64,000 nucleotides of DNA from Isoptericola sp. AK164 (GTDB lineage Bacteria; Actinomycetota; Actinomycetes; Actinomycetales; Cellulomonadaceae), in the NCBI RefSeq assembly GCF_029643425.1, contig NZ_CP119106.1:2356001-2420000 (forward strand), given 5' to 3'. A program made the position numbers and the translations under genes. Shown here one piece after another: positions 8,893 to 16,132 of the stretch (position 1 is the stretch's first letter; the number at the start of each line of letters is the position of its first letter). Below the pieces are notes generated by a model. That model saw only the letters and a program-made list of their open reading frames with translations. It did no database searches and was not told the origin of the DNA.

Positions 8893-10110
8893 ATGCACCA
8901 CGCGACCACGACCACCGCCGCGCCGGACACCCCGGCGTCGACCGGACGCACGGGCCTCTGGCTCGTCGGCGCCCGCGGCTCGGTGGCCACCACCGCCACG
9001 CTCGGCCTCGCCGCGCTCGCCGCCGGGCACGCCCCGCCGACCGGCTGCGTCACCGCCGCCGAGCCGTTCGACGGCCTCGCGCTGCCCGCGTTCGGCGACC
9101 TCGTCGTCGGCGGGCACGACGTCGCGCCCACGACGATGGTCAAGCAGGCCGAGGCGCTCGCCGCCGCCGGGATGATCCCCGGTCACCTGCTGTCCGCCAC
9201 CCGCGACGCGCTCGCCGCGGCCGACGCCGAGGTCCGCCCCGGGTACGACGCCCGCCAGCACCACGGGTCGCAGCAGGAGGCCGCCGAGGCGCTGGCCGCC
9301 GACCTGACCGCCTTCCGCCGGACCCACGACCTGGACCGGGTCGTCGTCGTCGACGTCGCCTCGACCGAGCCGCCGCTGGACCTGCTCCCCGAGCACGAGG
9401 ACCCGGCGCTCCTGCGCGCGGCGCTGGCCGACCCCGACCAGGCCGTGCTCCCGGCGTCGTCGGTGACCGCCTACGCCGCGGTGCTGGCCGGCTGCGCGTA
9501 CGCCTCCTTCACGCCGTCGGCCGGGATGACCGTGCCCGTGCTGGCGCGCTGGGCCGCCGAAGCGGGCCTGCCGGTGGCGGGCCAGGACGGCAAGACCGGG
9601 CAGACCTGGCTGCGCACCGTCCTGGCGCCCGCCTTCACCGCCCGCGGCATGCGCGTGCTGTCCTGGGCCGGCACCAACCTGCTCGGCGGCGGCGACGGCG
9701 CCACCCTGGCCGACCCCGTGGCCGCCCGCAGCAAGCTCACCTCCAAGAACCGCGGCCTGCGCGACCTCACCGGCACCGACGTCACCCCGTTGCACATCGA
9801 CAACGTGCCCGACCTCGGCGACGTGAAGGTCGCCTGGGACCACGTGCACGTCGAGGGCTTCCTCGGCTCGCGGCTGACCCTGCAGACGACCTGGAGCGCC
9901 CACGACTCCATGCTCGCCGCCCCGATGATCCTCGACCTGGCCCGCCTCCTCGCGCTGGCCCACGCCGCCGGGGTGTCCGGCCCGGTGCCCGAGCTCGGCT
10001 ACTTCTTCAAGGACCCCTGGGGCTCCGACGTGCACGGCGCCGCCGCCCAGGCGATCCAGCTGGCCGACTGGGCCCGCCGCACCGCCGACGTCGCGGGGCA
10101 CCGGCCGTGA
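8893..10110 (+). CDS. Inositol-3-phosphate synthase homologue, first gene of Ebo-type operon
   Basis: 405 residues. myo-Inositol-phosphate synthases convert glucose 6-phosphate to inositol phosphate with catalytic NAD. Family blocks are present in order: GARGSVATT (26-34, NAD loop), GQDGKTGQT (230-238), GGGDGATL (265-272), ARSKLTSK (278-285, with K281 and K285 matching the paired active-site lysines), VPDLGDVKVAWD (305-316, K312) and HDSMLAAPMILDL (338-350). These resemble the INO1-like branch more than a minimal bacterial enzyme, but the glycine-rich loop and several side chains diverge. RBS GGGGGAG precedes the ATG. It overlaps the prenyltransferase gene by four bases. In known Ebo clusters EboD, a dehydroquinate-synthase-like cyclase, fills this cyclitol-forming slot; the replacement role here is inferred. 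Confidence 0.85.
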   Translation: MHHATTTTAAPDTPASTGRTGLWLVGARGSVATTATLGLAALAAGHAPPTGCVTAAEPFDGLALPAFGDLVVGGHDVAPTTMVKQAEALAAAGMIPGHLLSATRDALAAADAEVRPGYDARQHHGSQQEAAEALAADLTAFRRTHDLDRVVVVDVASTEPPLDLLPEHEDPALLRAALADPDQAVLPASSVTAYAAVLAGCAYASFTPSAGMTVPVLARWAAEAGLPVAGQDGKTGQTWLRTVLAPAFTARGMRVLSWAGTNLLGGGDGATLADPVAARSKLTSKNRGLRDLTGTDVTPLHIDNVPDLGDVKVAWDHVHVEGFLGSRLTLQTTWSAHDSMLAAPMILDLARLLALAHAAGVSGPVPELGYFFKDPWGSDVHGAAAQAIQLADWARRTADVAGHRP

Positions 10111-11018
10111 GGGCCGGAGACCTCGTCGAGCTCGTCCGCGCCCCGGCCGCCCTGACCGTCCTGGGCGACACCCTCGCCGGGATGGCCGCCGCCCCGCCGA
10201 CCACGCGCCGGGCACGCCACGGGCTGCTGCCCGTCGCCTCGGCCTGCCTCTACCTGGGCGGCATGGCGTTGAACGACTACGGCGACCGCGACCTCGACGC
10301 GCTCGAACGCCCCGAGCGCCCGATCCCGTCCGGCCGGGTGACCCCGGGCCAGGCGCTCGCCGTCGGCACGGGGCTCGTCGCGACCGGCGTCGTGGCCGCG
10401 GGGGTCGCGAGCGGACGACGCGGGCTCGGGGTGGCGCTGCCGCTCGCGGCCTGCGTGCTCACCTACGACCTCGCCGCCAAGGACCGGCCGGCTGGCGCGG
10501 TCGTCATGGCCGCCTGCCGCGGCCTGGACGTCCTGCTGGGCGCGACACCGACCTCGTGGCGGGCGGCCGCCCCGACCGCCGCCGTGTTCTTCACCCACAC
10601 GCTGGCCGTGACCGCGCTGTCCCGGGGCGAGGTCCACGGCACGACCAGCACGGTGGCCCGCTGCGCCGTCGCCGGCACGACGGCGGCCGCGACCGCGACC
10701 GCCGCCGCGGCCCTGCGGCCCGCGACCGCCCGGCCCGCCGCCTCGCGGTCCGGTGCGGTGACCCGGACGCTCGGCGCGCTGGCCGCCACGGCCGGGTACG
10801 TAGCCATGTGCCTGCCGCCCCAGCTGCACGCGGCCGAGGACCGGTCGGCCGGGGCGGCCCGCGCCGCGACCGGGGCCGGCATCCAGGCGATGGTCCCGCT
10901 GCAGGCCGCCTGGACGCTGCGCGGGGGCCGGGCGGCGAGCACCGCCGTGCTCGCGGGCGCCCTGGTCGCCGGGCGCCTGCTGCGCCGCCGCGGCCGCAAG
11001 CAGGTGAGCATCACGTGA
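10107..11018 (+). CDS. eboC: UbiA-family prenyltransferase, EboC type
   Basis: 303 residues, integral membrane. The first Asp-rich motif NDYGDRDLD lies at 56-64, followed by RPIPSGR. The second motif is replaced by YDLAAKDRP (120-128), as in the EboC branch rather than MenA or UbiA proper. UbiA enzymes move a polyprenyl group onto an acceptor at the membrane. In the Ebo system the acceptor is unknown; a cyclitol made by the preceding synthase is a reasonable candidate (inference). GTG start overlaps the upstream stop (GTGA), and the 3' end overlaps the isomerase start in the same way, so translation is coupled. The C-terminal tail is basic (RRRGRK). Confidence 0.87.
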   Translation: MRAGDLVELVRAPAALTVLGDTLAGMAAAPPTTRRARHGLLPVASACLYLGGMALNDYGDRDLDALERPERPIPSGRVTPGQALAVGTGLVATGVVAAGVASGRRGLGVALPLAACVLTYDLAAKDRPAGAVVMAACRGLDVLLGATPTSWRAAAPTAAVFFTHTLAVTALSRGEVHGTTSTVARCAVAGTTAAATATAAAALRPATARPAASRSGAVTRTLGALAATAGYVAMCLPPQLHAAEDRSAGAARAATGAGIQAMVPLQAAWTLRGGRAASTAVLAGALVAGRLLRRRGRKQVSIT

Positions 11019-11917
11019 GCGGCTCCGCCTCCTCGTCCCCGCTCCCCTTCGCGATCGGCTACGGCACGAACGGGTTCGGGGACCACCCGCTGCCGTCCGC
11101 CCTCGACGTCCTGGACGCCCTGGGCTACGACGCCGTCGCCCTGACGGTCGGCTACCCGCACCTCGACCCCTTCGCGCCCGGGTCGTCGCAGACGACGGAA
11201 CGGCTGGCGCGGCGGCTCGGCCGGATGCGCGACGGCGCCGGTGCCGCCGTGGTCGTCGAGACCGGCACCCGGTTCACGCTCGACCCGTGGACCAAGCACC
11301 GTCCGACGCTCGTCGACGCCGAGGCCGGGCTACGGATGCGCTACCTGACCCGGGCGATCGACGTCGCCGCGACGCTGGACGCGCGCTGCGTGTCGTTCTT
11401 CTCCGGCGTGCTGCCCGAGGACGACCGTCCCGCCGACGGGTGGGCCCGGCTGGTCGACCGGCTCCCCGTGCTCCTGGAGGAGGCCCGGGAGAGCGGGGTG
11501 CGCCTGGCGATCGAGCCCGAGCCGGGCATGCTCGTCGAGACCGTGGAGGACGCCCTGCGCCTGCGGTCCGCGCTCGGCGACCCGGACGACCTGGGACTGA
11601 CCGTCGACGTCGGGCACTGTCTCGTCGTCGAGCCCGACGGCGTGGTCGGGGCCCTGCGCGCCGCGGCCCCCGTGCTGGCCAACGTCCAGCTCGACGACAT
11701 GCCGTGCACGCACCACGAGCACCGGCCGTTCGGCGAGGGCGACCTCGACCTGCCGCTGGTGCTGGCCACGCTCGCCGAGATCGACTACCGCGGCGTCGCC
11801 GCCGTCGAGCTCCCCCGCCACTCCCACGACGCCCCGGCGCTCGCCCGCCGCAGCCTGGCCGCGCTGCGGCAGGCCTGGGCGGACGTCGTCGGGCACCCCC
11901 CGGAGGCCACCTCATGA
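11015..11917 (+). CDS. Sugar phosphate isomerase/epimerase-like TIM barrel in Ebo-type operon
   Basis: 300 residues, xylose-isomerase-like (AP endonuclease 2) fold. Metal-site landmarks are VVETG near 75, AIEPEPGMLVET, VDVGHC, NVQLDDM and the closing AVELPRH. It resembles, but is shorter than, the EboE protein encoded three genes downstream, so the operon carries two members of this superfamily. Likely acts on a sugar or cyclitol phosphate; substrate unknown. GTG start at 11015 overlaps the eboC stop by four bases and the stop overlaps the eboA ATG (ATGA), so it is part of the same coupled unit. Confidence 0.82.
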   Translation: MSGSASSSPLPFAIGYGTNGFGDHPLPSALDVLDALGYDAVALTVGYPHLDPFAPGSSQTTERLARRLGRMRDGAGAAVVVETGTRFTLDPWTKHRPTLVDAEAGLRMRYLTRAIDVAATLDARCVSFFSGVLPEDDRPADGWARLVDRLPVLLEEARESGVRLAIEPEPGMLVETVEDALRLRSALGDPDDLGLTVDVGHCLVVEPDGVVGALRAAAPVLANVQLDDMPCTHHEHRPFGEGDLDLPLVLATLAEIDYRGVAAVELPRHSHDAPALARRSLAALRQAWADVVGHPPEATS

Positions 11918-12591
11918 CCGACACCTGGATCGACCGGGCCCGGGCCGACGTCGCCCGCGACCCGCGGACGCTGACCCGCCTGTTCGCCCTCGCGCCACGA
12001 CGCGCCGGCCGAGGCCCCCACGACCCGCAGGGCGACCCGCACGGCGTCGTGCGGGGCACCGCCGAGGACGACGCGCGCGCCGCCCTCGTCGTCGCGCTGG
12101 TCCGCGGCGTCGACGGCACCGGCAGCGACACCGGCGACGCGACGGCCGCGCGGCTGCGCGAGCTCTACGACCGGGGCGACACCGGCGAGCGCCGGGGCGT
12201 GCTGCGCGGTCTGGACGCCCTCGAGGCCGCCGGGGGCGTCCCCGGAGGCTCGCCGCTGGCGCGCACCGGCGTCGAGCTCGCCCACGACGCCCACCGCGCC
12301 AACGACCCGTCCCTGGTGGCCGCCGCCGTCGGCCGGTTCGGCGGGCGGCACCTGGACCAGCACACCTGGCGGCACACGGTGCTCAAGCTCGTGTTCCTGG
12401 GCGTCCCCCTGGACGCCGTCGCCGGGCTGACCGACCGGCTCGACGACGAGACCGTCCGCATGGCGTCCGACTTCGCCGCCGAACGGCGCGCGGCCGGCCG
12501 GCCGGTCCCGGACGACGTCGACCGGATCCTGCACCCCCTCGACCCCGGCCGGCCCGCGCCGACCGCCCCGACCCCGAGCACCGCGGAGTGA
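11914..12591 (+). CDS. eboA: EboA-domain protein
   Basis: 225 residues, soluble. The C-terminal half carries the EboA signature: RHLDQHTWRHTVLKLVF, then GVPLDAVAGL and a SDFAAERRAAGRPV tail. EboA is a helical protein of unknown activity found with EboB-F in cyanobacteria, algal endosymbionts and others. In Nostoc the ebo cluster is reported to be needed to move a scytonemin precursor to the periplasm. The N-terminal 60 residues are weakly conserved and Arg-rich. ATG overlaps the upstream stop by four bases. Assignment rests on the signature and on the neighbours. Confidence 0.85.
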   Translation: MTDTWIDRARADVARDPRTLTRLFALAPRRAGRGPHDPQGDPHGVVRGTAEDDARAALVVALVRGVDGTGSDTGDATAARLRELYDRGDTGERRGVLRGLDALEAAGGVPGGSPLARTGVELAHDAHRANDPSLVAAAVGRFGGRHLDQHTWRHTVLKLVFLGVPLDAVAGLTDRLDDETVRMASDFAAERRAAGRPVPDDVDRILHPLDPGRPAPTAPTPSTAE

Positions 12592-12593
12592 CC

Positions 12594-13469
12594 ATGCGCA
12601 TCTTCGACCCGCACATCCACATGACCAGCCGCACCACCGACGACTACGAGCGGATGTACGCCGCCGGGGTCCGCGCCGTCGTCGAACCCGCGTTCTGGCT
12701 CGGCCAGCCGCGCACCAGCGTGGCCTCCTTCTGCGACTACTTCGACTCCCTCGTGGGCTGGGAACGGTTCCGGGCCGAGCAGTTCGGCATCCGCCACCAC
12801 GCGACCATCGCCCTCAACCCCAAGGAGGCGAACGACCCGCGCTGCCGCGACGTGCTGGACGAGGTGCCGCGGTACCTGCTCAAGGACGGCGTCGTGGCCG
12901 TGGGCGAGGTCGGCTACGACTCGATGACCCCGGCCGAGGACGAGGCGTTCGCCGCGCAGCTCCAGATGGCGCGCGAGGCCGAGCTGCCCGTGCTGGTGCA
13001 CACCCCGCACCGCGACAAGCTGAACGGCACGCGGCGCACGCTCGACGTGGTGCGCGAGTCCGGCATCGACCCGTCGCGGGTGCTCGTGGACCACCTCAAC
13101 GAGACCACCGTGGCGATGGTCCGCGACGCCGGGGCGTGGGCGGGCTTCTCCATCTACCCGGACACCAAGATGGACCCGCACCGCATGGTCGCGCTGCTGC
13201 ACGAGTACGGCACCGAGCGGATGATCGTGAACTCCGCGGCCGACTGGGGGCGCAGCGACCCGCTGCGCACGGCGCGCACCGGGGAGGAGATGCTCGCCGC
13301 CGGGTTCACCGACCACGACGTCGACCGCGTGCTGTGGCGCAACCCGGTGGCCTTCTACGGCACCTCCGGCAACCTCGTGCTGGACCCCGTCCCCGGTTTC
13401 GTCCCCGGCGAGGTCCCGGCGCCCGCGGAGTTCGAGGGCTCCTCGGTGCTGCGCGGCGCGCGGGTCTGA
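12594..13469 (+). CDS. eboB: TatD-family metal-dependent hydrolase, EboB type
   Basis: 291 residues. It opens with MRIFDPHIHM, where H7 and H9 are the first metal ligands of the amidohydrolase barrel. GEVGYD supplies the Glu ligand and PVLVHTPH the next His. SAADWGRSDPL near the C terminus carries the Asp. Relatives of TatD remove nucleotides or hydrolyse phosphoesters; EboB's substrate is unknown. GTG at 12588 overlaps the eboA stop, but GGAG at 12585-12588 sits five bases before ATG 12594, so the ATG is preferred. A nine-base gap separates it from eboE. Confidence 0.88.
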   Translation: MRIFDPHIHMTSRTTDDYERMYAAGVRAVVEPAFWLGQPRTSVASFCDYFDSLVGWERFRAEQFGIRHHATIALNPKEANDPRCRDVLDEVPRYLLKDGVVAVGEVGYDSMTPAEDEAFAAQLQMAREAELPVLVHTPHRDKLNGTRRTLDVVRESGIDPSRVLVDHLNETTVAMVRDAGAWAGFSIYPDTKMDPHRMVALLHEYGTERMIVNSAADWGRSDPLRTARTGEEMLAAGFTDHDVDRVLWRNPVAFYGTSGNLVLDPVPGFVPGEVPAPAEFEGSSVLRGARV

Positions 13470-13478
13470 GGGACGCCG

Positions 13479-14675
13479 ATGCACCTGTCGTACTGCACCA
13501 ACGTCCACCCCGCCGAGGACCTCGACGGCGTGCTGGCGCAGCTGGAGCGCTACGCGGCACCGGTCCGGCGCGCCACCGGCCGCGAGCGCCTCGGGATCGG
13601 CCTGTGGCTGCCCGCCGCGCTCGCGCACCGGCTCGACGCCTCGGCCCCGGACCGCGACCGGCTGCGCGGAGCGCTGGACCGGCACGGCCTCGAGGTGCGC
13701 ACGCTCAACGCCTTCCCCGCCGGCGGCTTCCACGCCGAGGTCGTGGGCCGCGACGTGTACCACCCGGACTGGACCCGGCCGGAACGGCTCGCGTACACCC
13801 TGGCCTGCGCCCGCGTGCTCACGGACCTGCTGCCGCCCGGCGCCGCCGGGTCGATCTCCACCCTGCCGCTGGGCTGGCGCACCGGCTGGACGACGCGCGA
13901 CGACGAGGCCGCCACCCGGGCGCTGGCCGCGCTGTCCGCGGAGCTGCGCGCCCTGGCCGACCGCACCGGTGTCGTGGTGCGGCTGGCCGTCGAACCGGAA
14001 CCGGGGTGCGTGCTGGACACGGTCGACGACGTCGTCGGCTGGCTGGCGGACCGGACCGGTACCGACCGGCCCGCCGGGACGCGCATCGACCCCGCGCTCG
14101 TCGGGGTGTGCCTCGACACCTGCCACCTCGCGGTGTCGTTCGCGGACCCCGCCGCGGCGGTGCGTCGCGTCACCGACGCCGGGCTGCGCGTCGTCAAGGT
14201 CCAGGCGTCGGCCGCCCTGCACGTCGCCGACCCCGCCGACCTGGAGACCCGCAGCGCCCTGACCCGGTTCGCCGAGCCCCGCTACCTGCACCAGACCCGC
14301 GCGCTGGACGCCGCGGGCCGGGTGCACGGCGTCGACGACCTGCCCGAGGCCCTCGCCGGCGGTCTGCCCCGGACCGGTCCGTGGCGCGTGCACTTCCACG
14401 TGCCGCTGCATCACGACCCGGCTCCCCCGCTGTCGGCCACCACCGACGTGCTGCGCACCGCCGTCGACGCCGTGGCGCGCGCCCCGCACGGGCGCGAGAC
14501 GCACCTGGACGTGGAGACCTACACCTGGGGGGTGCTCCCCGCCGACGTGCTGCCGACGGGGGCCGACGAGCTCGTCGCCGGCATCGCCGCCGAGCTGCGC
14601 TGGGCCGCCGACCACCTGGAGGCCGTGGAGGCCCCCGACGCCGTCCTGACCACCACCGGGAGGAACACGCTGTGA
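13479..14675 (+). CDS. eboE: EboE, metabolite traffic protein (TIM-barrel isomerase-like)
   Basis: 398 residues, a normal EboE length. Conserved blocks are LSYCTNVHPAEDL at the start, LNAFPAGGFHAEVVGRDVYH, GSISTLPLGWRTGW, the metal-site AVEPEPGCVLDT, CLDTCHLAVSFADP and the closing HLDVETYTWGVLP. The fold is xylose-isomerase-like with probable divalent-metal ligands in the E, D and H residues of those blocks. Its reaction is unknown. The name comes from the cyanobacterial ebo phenotype. GTGA overlaps with the following gene, so it is coupled to eboF. Confidence 0.9.
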   Translation: MHLSYCTNVHPAEDLDGVLAQLERYAAPVRRATGRERLGIGLWLPAALAHRLDASAPDRDRLRGALDRHGLEVRTLNAFPAGGFHAEVVGRDVYHPDWTRPERLAYTLACARVLTDLLPPGAAGSISTLPLGWRTGWTTRDDEAATRALAALSAELRALADRTGVVVRLAVEPEPGCVLDTVDDVVGWLADRTGTDRPAGTRIDPALVGVCLDTCHLAVSFADPAAAVRRVTDAGLRVVKVQASAALHVADPADLETRSALTRFAEPRYLHQTRALDAAGRVHGVDDLPEALAGGLPRTGPWRVHFHVPLHHDPAPPLSATTDVLRTAVDAVARAPHGRETHLDVETYTWGVLPADVLPTGADELVAGIAAELRWAADHLEAVEAPDAVLTTTGRNTL

Positions 14676-16132
14676 GACCCGTCCTGCTGCTCGACGTCGT
14701 CGGCCTGACGCCCCGCGCGCTGGCCCACATGCCCCGGTTGCGCCGCCTCGCGGGCACCGGGTGGTCCTCGCCGCTGGCGACGGTGCTGCCCGCCGTGACC
14801 TGCACCGTGCAGTCGACGATGCTCACCGGCCTGTCCCCCGCCCAGCACGGCGCGGTCGCCAACGGCTGGTACTTCCGCGAGCTCGGCGAGGTGTTCCTGT
14901 GGCGGCAGCACAACCGTCTGGTCGCCGGCGAGACGGTCTGGGAGACCGGTCGCCGACGGCACGCTGACTACTCCGCCGTCAACGTGTGCTGGTGGTACGC
15001 GATGGGGATGACCACCGAGGTCACCGTGACGCCCCGGCCGATCTACCACGCCGACGGCCGCAAGTCCCCCGACGCCTACGTCCGCCCGCCGGGCCTGCAC
15101 GACGAGCTCGTCGAACGGTTCGGCGACTTCCCCCTGTTCACCTACTGGGGTCCGACGGCGTCGCTCACCTCCAGCCGGTGGGTCGTGGACGCCACCCGGC
15201 ACCTGCTGCGCACCCGCGCCGCGGACCTGACCACCGCGTACGTCCCGCACCTGGACTACGACCTGCAGCGGTTCGGCCCCGAGTCCCCGCAGGCCGACGC
15301 CGCCGCGGCCGACCTGGACGGCGTGCTCGCGCCGCTGCTGGACCAGGCCGAGGCCGACGGCGTGACCGTCGTCGTCGTGTCCGAGTACGGCATCACCCGC
15401 GCGGAGCGTCCCGTGCACCTCAACCGGGTGCTGCGCCGTGAGGGGCTGCTGGAGGTCTACACCCAGGCGGGCCGCGAACAGCTCGACCCGTGGACCTCGC
15501 GGGCGTTCGCCGTCGCCGACCACCAGGTCGCGCACGTGTACGTCGACGACGCCGCCGACGTCGCCCGGGTCGCCGACCTGCTGCGCGCCGTGCCCGGCGT
15601 GGACGAGGTGCTCGACCGCGAGGCCCAGGCCCGCTACGGGCTCGACCACGAGCGCTCCGGCGAGCTCGTCGTCGTCGCCGAGCCCGGGGCGTGGTTCACC
15701 TACTACTTCTGGCTGGACGACGACCGGGCCCCGGAGTACGCGCGCGCCGTGGACATCCACCGCAAGCCCGGCTTCGACCCGGCCGAGCTGTTCTTCGACC
15801 CGGCCGACCGGCTCGCGAAGGCCAAGGCCGGGCTGAACCTCGTGCGCAAGAAGCTCGGGCTGCGCTACGCGATGTCCACCGTGCCCCTGGACGCCTCCTG
15901 GGTGGGCGGCACGCACGGCCGCCTTCCCGACGACGCCGCGGACTCCCCGATGATCCTCTGCTCGGCCCCGGAGGTCCCCGACGTCGTGGCGCGGCAGGTG
16001 CACGACGACGACCGGTCGGTCCCGGCGGCCGCGGTCAAGGACCTCGTGCTCGCCCTGCAGGGGATCGCTCCCGGCGGGTCCCCGCAGCACGCCGTCCCAG
16101 GGGGCGCCGAGGCCGCGGATGTGGTCGGCTAG
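14672..16132 (+). CDS. eboF: Nucleotide pyrophosphatase/phosphodiesterase, EboF type
   Basis: 486 residues of the alkaline-phosphatase superfamily. The nucleophile region is TVLPAVTCTVQSTMLTG, followed by LSPAQHGAVANGW. VPHLDYDLQRFGPES, VSEYGIT and GGTHGR are the later metal-ligand segments expected for a phosphodiesterase of this class. In Ebo clusters EboF is the last gene and is presumed to cleave a phosphate ester or diphosphate from the product. No signal peptide is visible, so it should be cytoplasmic. GTG at 14672 overlaps the eboE stop and has GGGAGGA upstream. It ends the coupled run of seven genes; the next gene starts 28 bases on with its own ribosome binding site. Confidence 0.85.
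   Translation: MRPVLLLDVVGLTPRALAHMPRLRRLAGTGWSSPLATVLPAVTCTVQSTMLTGLSPAQHGAVANGWYFRELGEVFLWRQHNRLVAGETVWETGRRRHADYSAVNVCWWYAMGMTTEVTVTPRPIYHADGRKSPDAYVRPPGLHDELVERFGDFPLFTYWGPTASLTSSRWVVDATRHLLRTRAADLTTAYVPHLDYDLQRFGPESPQADAAAADLDGVLAPLLDQAEADGVTVVVVSEYGITRAERPVHLNRVLRREGLLEVYTQAGREQLDPWTSRAFAVADHQVAHVYVDDAADVARVADLLRAVPGVDEVLDREAQARYGLDHERSGELVVVAEPGAWFTYYFWLDDDRAPEYARAVDIHRKPGFDPAELFFDPADRLAKAKAGLNLVRKKLGLRYAMSTVPLDASWVGGTHGRLPDDAADSPMILCSAPEVPDVVARQVHDDDRSVPAAAVKDLVLALQGIAPGGSPQHAVPGGAEAADVVG

Follow-up and report, generated by a model that had tools for sequence, protein, structure and literature searches.

An Ebo-type operon of Isoptericola sp. AK164 with a myo-inositol-phosphate synthase homologue in the place of EboD

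Which enzyme can occupy the place of EboD in an Ebo operon, and what does it say about the Ebo product? The described ebo cluster (eboA-F) contains the sugar-phosphate cyclase EboD and a UbiA-family prenyltransferase (PMC5133447; PMC6282210). In Nostoc punctiforme, ebo deletions block scytonemin formation and the monomer remains in the cytoplasm, from which the authors proposed a lipid-carrier role (PMC6282210). The question is raised by a stretch of 64,000 nucleotides of Isoptericola sp. AK164 (contig NZ_CP119106.1, positions 2,356,001 to 2,420,000, forward strand), called the window below. It carries an Ebo-type operon whose first gene, MIPSx, is a homologue of myo-inositol-phosphate synthase (MIPS). 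The sequence comparisons presented here make a strong case that, at the gene level, MIPS replaces EboD.

The operon is a run of seven genes on the plus strand (8893-16132), all located where the original prediction had placed them. MIPSx (8893-10110, 405 residues) has both MIPS domains (PF07994, E = 2.5e-48; PF01658, E = 1.1e-28), which confirms its assignment as an inositol-phosphate-synthase homologue. The second gene (10107-11018, 303 residues) encodes an EboC-type UbiA prenyltransferase. It passes the SCO3242-family model NF045897 (308 bits, cut-off 260) and stays under the cut-off of the EboC equivalog NF035940 (146 bits, cut-off 250), as does the EboC of an EboD-type operon of Azospirillum (89 bits). 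TIM1 (11015-11917, 300 residues, PF01261) is a xylose-isomerase-like TIM barrel. The EboA-domain protein (11914-12591, 225 residues) scores 133 bits with NF035938 (cut-off 50) and does not pass a narrower EboA family model (42 bits, cut-off 320). EboB (12588-13469, 293 residues) is a TatD-like metal-dependent hydrolase over the cut-off of PF01026, and its closest solved structure is 3guw, AF_1765. EboE (13479-14675, 398 residues) is a TIM-barrel protein (NF035939, 435 bits, cut-off 250). EboF (14672-16132, 486 residues) belongs to the nucleotide pyrophosphatase/phosphodiesterase family (PF01663, E = 7e-60), and is 51% identical to both the Azospirillum and the Deinococcus EboF. Five of the six neighbouring pairs overlap by 4 bases (GTGA at 10107, 11015, 12588 and 14672, ATGA at 11914), and 9 bases separate EboB from EboE, so that the coupling originally read from these overlaps holds. 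EboE, the EboA domain, EboB and EboF are all recognized, and EboD is not. As EboD is found neither in the operon nor in the genome, the operon is classed as an Ebo variant and not as a standard member.

The source genome is one contig of 3.58 Mb. Its single dehydroquinate (DHQ)-synthase gene is a true AroB (TIGR01357, 355 bits, cut-off 305), and this gene gives 176 bits with the EboD-type model NF004852, under the cut-off of 333. An EboD hidden elsewhere in the genome was thus ruled out, because the only DHQ-synthase homologue is AroB, and the proposal that MIPS occupies the place of EboD stands. A second INO1, of the housekeeping mycothiol type, is located elsewhere in the genome (TIGR03450, 717 bits, cut-off 638); MIPSx gives 36 bits with the same model and does not pass it. 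MIPSx as the housekeeping INO1 was ruled out, since the separate gene passes this equivalog. As the housekeeping INO1 is separate, the MIPS copy of the operon looks dedicated to the operon.

Profile searches for EboE, the operon MIPS and EboD (NF004852) were performed against 296 genomes of the phylum. EboE exceeds its cut-off in 13 genomes (14 loci), and a fourteenth genome, G279, has EboE pieces only. The operon-MIPS profile gives 566-615 bits in exactly the same 13 genomes, where the starts of MIPSx and EboE are no more than 5.3 kb apart; beyond them, 43 more genomes match it at E<=1e-25, with 328 bits at best. The EboD model matches none of the 296 genomes at E<=1e-80, with the best candidates per genome scored, and it does pass its cut-off in the EboD plasmids of Azospirillum and Deinococcus. 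The co-occurrence originally suggested as a check was therefore found, with the MIPS clade in the EboE genomes and EboD in none. The MIPS-first order is kept in 12 of 14 ebo stretches from other genomes of the phylum. It is broken in L028, the second locus of G128, and in the decayed locus L040 of G279. In L040, EboC is a fragment, EboE has lost its middle, and TIM1 and MIPS are missing, while the EboB and EboF beside them look intact; no MIPS of the operon clade was found in G279. Upstream of the MIPS-less L028 lies an inositol-monophosphatase-like gene. Its best model is histidinol-phosphatase, inositol-1-monophosphatase ranking third, and it was not used as support.

Named actinobacterial EboE loci were taken as the best 80 of 581 confirmed, a set skewed to the kin of the window. 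Among the 68 of them that extend more than 6.5 kb upstream, MIPSx is present in 62, spanning 31 genus labels, and 42 of these 62 have the exact seven-gene order. No EboD match was found in any of the best 80. A separate EboA was not found in 17 of the 68 loci, and in 16 of the 17 the TIM1 frame is 442-539 residues long. TIM1 thus appears to be fused to EboA in 16 of 68 relatives, and the long frames agree with the hybrid xylose-isomerase-like/EboA proteins mentioned for Actinobacteria in PMC5133447.

Within the genus, EboE is present in 8 of 13 genomes. Both the window genome and L204 have cimA on one side of the seven genes and, on the other, a small membrane-protein gene with ilvE further out. 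L205 has the order of L204 with wider gaps, and in L206 the ilvE side is visible, cimA not being found in the 2.5 kb fetched beyond MIPSx. In the congeners L211 and L212, cimA adjoins the small membrane-protein gene with nothing in between. According to the comparison of the empty and the occupied sites, the module is made up of the seven genes, is cleanly bounded and is patchily inherited. L207-L210 (G310, G311, G312, G314) have a diverged MIPS-type operon with a MIPS identity of about 50%, and neither cimA nor ilvE was seen in the stretches fetched. Two different ebo operons of the MIPS type thus occur in the genus: that of the window, next to ilvE, and the diverged one.

Outside Actinobacteria, nine plasmid loci with EboE were examined, of 15 named records among 48 found. 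Eight of them (L024-L026, L160-L164) have EboD and no MIPS match. The ninth, on a plasmid of Gemmatirosa kalamazoonensis (Gemmatimonadota), has EboE followed by EboG-EboB-EboF-EboC-MIPS-TIM1, and EboD was not found in the record of this 1.04 Mb plasmid. Its MIPS and TIM1 are each 42% identical to the window homologues. Trees were quick IQ-TREE runs, with the Shimodaira-Hasegawa-like approximate likelihood ratio (SH-aLRT) as the only support. The Gemmatirosa EboB is sister to the EboB of the Deinococcus EboG/EboD-type operon (SH-aLRT 100), and its grouping with actinobacterial EboB is rejected by the approximately unbiased test (p-AU 9e-6). EboF is nested in EboD-type EboF (98), and a branch with support 100 puts EboE together with the EboD-type sequences on one side. 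EboC is placed with MIPS-type EboC (88), and its grouping with Deinococcus is rejected (p-AU 0.0008). EboC in general sorts by cyclase type, the eight EboD-type EboC being on one side of a branch with support 100. The Gemmatirosa operon is the best sign that MIPS may be substituted for EboD.

Three haloarchaeal plasmids (L154, L156 and L157, of Halobaculum, Halocatena and Natronococcus) have a MIPS with EboB-, EboC- and EboF-like genes and two TIM barrels. The best model for the Halobaculum EboC-like protein is EboC (178 bits, below the cut-off). Full-length EboE or EboA was not found in the stretches fetched, nor EboD on the three plasmid records. The MIPS form had been described as actinobacterial; this was too narrow, as the form also occurs in Gemmatimonadota and haloarchaea. 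In a phage collection, no EboB match was found.

That two unrelated ring-forming enzymes occupy one slot suggests that a cyclitol is what the two versions have in common. The best explanation is that the operon is an Ebo variant in which an unrelated NAD-type MIPS, together with TIM1, has taken over from EboD, and in which an inositol-derived cyclitol is prenylated by EboC. We hold this explanation as a whole a little above even, and the cyclitol headgroup and the EboC prenylation step within it are plausible. In this scheme, MIPSx would form an inositol phosphate by cyclizing glucose 6-phosphate or a similar hexose phosphate. TIM1 would modify the derived cyclitol by isomerase, epimerase or dehydratase chemistry, and the membrane-bound EboC would prenylate it. 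The molecule would be finished by EboB, EboE and EboF, with EboA as a scaffold. The end result would be a membrane-resident polyprenyl-cyclitol, comparable to what EboD-type operons are presumed to make. Our best guess at its purpose is a lipid carrier or membrane cofactor for periplasmic metabolism, because of the published Nostoc work and because of the secreted sugar-oxidation genes that neighbour the operons of relatives.

The residues of the enzymes were compared with this scheme. For MIPSx, the closest solved structure is Archaeoglobus fulgidus Ino1 (1u1i, E = 3.6e-57), and it was also aligned to the lysine variants 3qvw and 3qvx. The eight residues D232, N262, D268, K281, K285, K312, D338 and K373, which we take to be catalytic from the A. 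fulgidus work, are conserved without exception in the 73 actinobacterial Ebo MIPS with frames of 330-480 residues, and also in 24 others compared. The product of MIPSx is thus likely to be a cyclitol phosphate. In TIM1, E167, D198, H201 and E265 are invariant in 26 aligned sequences, and presumably form a metal-type set. TIM1-like genes also occur near MIPS in the non-Ebo loci of Hymenobacter, Methylobacterium and G279, so that it is reasonable to suppose that TIM1 acts on a MIPS-derived cyclitol. The operon genes had been read correctly at the outset, except that the TIM-barrel gene was left without a role although it is a companion of MIPS. In plasmids of Hymenobacter volaticus (L158:8545-15171) and Methylobacterium aquaticum (L159), a TIM1-like gene lies some 4.5 kb from a MIPS, and neither locus gave an Ebo match. 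In the Hymenobacter locus, HD-domain, Gfo/Idh/MocA and YcaO genes lie between the two. These loci possibly represent another uncharacterized cyclitol pathway.

The first Asp motif of EboC (N56, D57, D60 and D64) is present in 82 of 82 sequences. In EboF, the putative threonine nucleophile T43 is present in 99 of 99 sequences, and D195 is kept. E238-Y239 (99 of 99) and Q199 (97 of 99), however, stand where the aligned phosphonoacetate hydrolase has D-H and H, positions that we assume to be metal ligands. EboF thus lacks the combination of Thr nucleophile and full ligand set of the dizinc phosphodiesterases in PF01663. Ordinary dizinc hydrolysis is doubtful for EboF, and an altered yet conserved activity is likely. 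The original prediction, in which EboF trims the cyclitol headgroup, is therefore supported in part: its substitution of MIPS for EboD stands, the trimming step is doubtful, and the restriction to actinobacteria does not hold.

Several observations weigh against the inositol-derived cyclitol, and some of them favour other explanations. The first of these is that MIPSx makes another cyclitol phosphate, from another sugar phosphate or with another ring size, so that the headgroup would not be strictly inositol-derived. The MIPS family has an enzyme with another product, the five-membered-cyclitol-phosphate synthase 6k96, and the genome already holds an INO1. In the MIPS tree, the 34 actinobacterial Ebo MIPS form one clade (SH-aLRT 99), and a branch with support 100 sets 17 other actinobacterial MIPS and those of Hymenobacter and Methylobacterium apart from the Ebo MIPS of actinobacteria, Gemmatirosa and haloarchaea. 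The housekeeping INO1 is on a very long branch with unsure placement, and 1u1i was not in this tree. A clade so distinct from the non-Ebo enzymes, and paired with TIM1, would suit another product. On the other hand, the eight catalytic positions match those of the archaeal MIPS, and the nearest solved relatives are named inositol-phosphate synthases. We regard this explanation as possible, though rather unlikely.

The second explanation is that MIPSx is a side branch, such as one feeding inositol into a phospholipid or thiol, that EboD is lost, and that the Ebo core makes its usual non-cyclitol product, such as a prenylated aromatic. The flavobacterial Ubi-297, which is of EboC type, farnesylated quinoline acids and not phenols, and the 14 acceptors described are all aromatic (PMC9235831). 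Certain ebo loci without EboD are described in PMC5133447. Furthermore, 6 of the 68 loci lack MIPSx beside the operon. Five of these six genomes carry MIPSx elsewhere. In two Lentzea it lies about 22 kb from eboC, seemingly on the same contig; in the L092 genome it is in a second full operon; the L122 genome has two copies, one accompanied by EboC and TIM1 and the other at the end of a contig; and in the L088 genome it has no Ebo genes beside it. In the sixth, the draft genome of L128, no MIPSx was found. In the seven genomes searched (those of the six loci and of L134), the EboD model was never over its cut-off, and three matches of 220-226 bits stayed below it. In the two Lentzea (L096:2352-7033 and L103), a CUT2-type sugar ATP-binding cassette (ABC) importer precedes eboC with a 7-base gap. 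This importer as a substitute for MIPSx was rejected, because MIPSx is about 22 kb off on seemingly the same contig, and one of the two genomes (L179) has a second full MIPS-type operon.

A side branch is difficult to reconcile with the co-occurrence in 13 of 13 genomes of the phylum sample, with the position of MIPSx inside the transcription unit, and with the clean ends of the operon. MIPS-TIM1 occurs again with Ebo genes in Gemmatimonadota, and MIPS with EboB-, EboC- and EboF-like genes in haloarchaea. We consider the side branch improbable. The comparisons themselves have weak points. The EboD and MIPS scans of the 296 genomes scored the best 5-6 first-look candidates per genome, and the EboD scan gave no match in any control genome. 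The absence of EboD in Gemmatirosa and haloarchaea refers to plasmid records only. The approximately unbiased test does not reject a grouping of the Gemmatirosa EboC with the full set of EboD-type EboC (p-AU 0.119), and for this reason the EboC tree was dropped as proof of a cassette transfer. The Gemmatirosa MIPS is not firmly placed between the actinobacterial and the haloarchaeal Ebo MIPS, and its TIM1 clusters with those of the non-Ebo loci of Hymenobacter, Methylobacterium and G279 (92) rather than with the TIM1 of the actinobacterial operons. Identity to TIM1 is only 24-31% for the TIM barrels of the haloarchaea, and one Halomarina MIPS, of the haloarchaeal clade, sits among glycosyltransferases without Ebo genes.

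Genes within 10 kb of the best 80 loci were compared using a crude gene finder and single-link clusters. A family of large proteins is near the operon in 32 of the 80 loci (15 genus labels), and two members checked have ThuA, glucose/sorbosone dehydrogenase (GSDH), CBM6 and 3-keto-disaccharide-hydrolase domains. Examples of these ThuA/GSDH-type proteins are L097:1041-5537 and L150:1206-4727. A 335-residue TIM barrel, distantly IolE-like, is found at 30 loci (16 genus labels), a second TIM-barrel family, some with a signal of twin-arginine translocation (Tat) type, at 36 (14 genus labels), and Gfo/Idh/MocA at 11 (11 genus labels). Sugar ABC parts also recur. A polyprenyl synthetase at 7 loci (7 genus labels; for example L138:12540-13613) is a possible source of the prenyl donor of EboC. 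In the 13 genomes with ebo there are 47 ThuA genes, of which 7, in 6 genomes, lie within 10 kb of EboE, where about 0.2 would be expected by chance by simple arithmetic. Among the direct neighbours of the window operon, none of these recurrent families was found.

A catabolic or salvage role of the operon, in the use of (keto-)sugars or cyclitols and with an intermediate anchored by EboC, could draw on the recurrent sugar-oxidation and uptake genes and on ThuA near EboE in 6 of 13 genomes, but it is very unlikely, as nothing in catabolism obviously calls for a UbiA prenyltransferase, the window operon has no such genes as direct neighbours, and MIPS works in the anabolic direction.

Some loci have further neighbours. 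In the haloarchaea, Natronococcus has a pyrroloquinoline quinone (PQQ)-type sugar dehydrogenase nearby and Halocatena a ThuA gene. On the Salipiger sp. CCB-MM3 plasmid NZ_CP014598.1 (L026:7073-8974), EboD has a VTT/DedA-type membrane domain (PF09335, E = 1.4e-18) fused to its N-terminus, with a weak match to the undecaprenyl-phosphate transporter UptA, and the locus also has a PQQ dehydrogenase. The fusion hints at a lipid-flipping step in the Ebo pathway. On a Streptomyces camelliae plasmid (L021:3191-4393), a ScyD/ScyE-family gene (NF033206, 243 bits, cut-off 80) is directly upstream of MIPS, which recalls the link between scytonemin and ebo in cyanobacteria. At L021:15439-15762, a gene for a small 2Fe-2S protein bears a database-predicted tet(W/32/O) label, which is probably false. 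For the flanking genes as a whole, a link to oxidation chemistry outside the cytoplasm and to lipid flipping is a hint and no more.

Taken more broadly, the Ebo operons of bacteria and haloarchaea may all make one hitherto unrecognized class of membrane molecules, polyprenyl-cyclitols, with EboD or MIPS plus a TIM barrel as interchangeable cyclases, an EboC matched to the cyclase, and the lipid acting as a carrier or redox-type cofactor for extracytoplasmic oxidation. This proposal is tentative and less likely than not. If true, the lipid would serve scytonemin in cyanobacteria, and sugars in actinobacteria and haloarchaea.

Among the matches listed in the literature search, which had most subscription journals outside its reach, no published account of MIPS with ebo was found, and the word inositol occurs 0 times in the main text of PMC5133447. 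The MIPS-type Ebo operon is thus a previously unreported variant in the literature searched, and it extends the reach of the Ebo pathway to Gemmatimonadota, in the MIPS form, and to haloarchaea. The operon was named in 2016, and a MIPS in the slot of EboD is a concrete clue to the Ebo product. As MIPS chemistry is well known, labelled inositol or glucose 6-phosphate would give a direct handle on this product.

The operon can be compared with four known systems. The eboA-F cluster of Yurchenko et al. (2016, PMC5133447) and Klicki et al. (2018, PMC6282210) shares with it the combination of a sugar-phosphate cyclase and UbiA, whereas the window version has the unrelated NAD-type MIPS plus TIM1 for EboD. 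The gene neighbourhood of the ebo-type clusters of Saccharomonospora and Flavobacteria is the same in PMC9235831, where EboD is given as a putative 3-dehydroquinate synthase and Saccharomonospora is named in the legend of Figure 3. Unlike that description, the Saccharomonospora locus found here (S. piscinae, L101) is of the MIPS type, with no EboD match. In Streptomyces coelicolor, SCO3242 ('putative transferase') and SCO3243 ('myo-inositol phosphate synthase') are given among the genes of the calcium-dependent antibiotic (CDA) cluster in PMC3610822, which treats them as antibiotic-cluster genes and not as Ebo. SCO3242 is the namesake of the NCBIfam model passed by the second gene of the window operon. 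We infer that both genes belong to the operon type of the window; if they do, these genes listed with the CDA cluster would be relabelled. Finally, the catalytic residues of the archaeal MIPS (A. fulgidus Ino1, 1u1i) align with MIPSx and are kept in it. MIPSx differs in that its clade is linked to a prenyltransferase operon.

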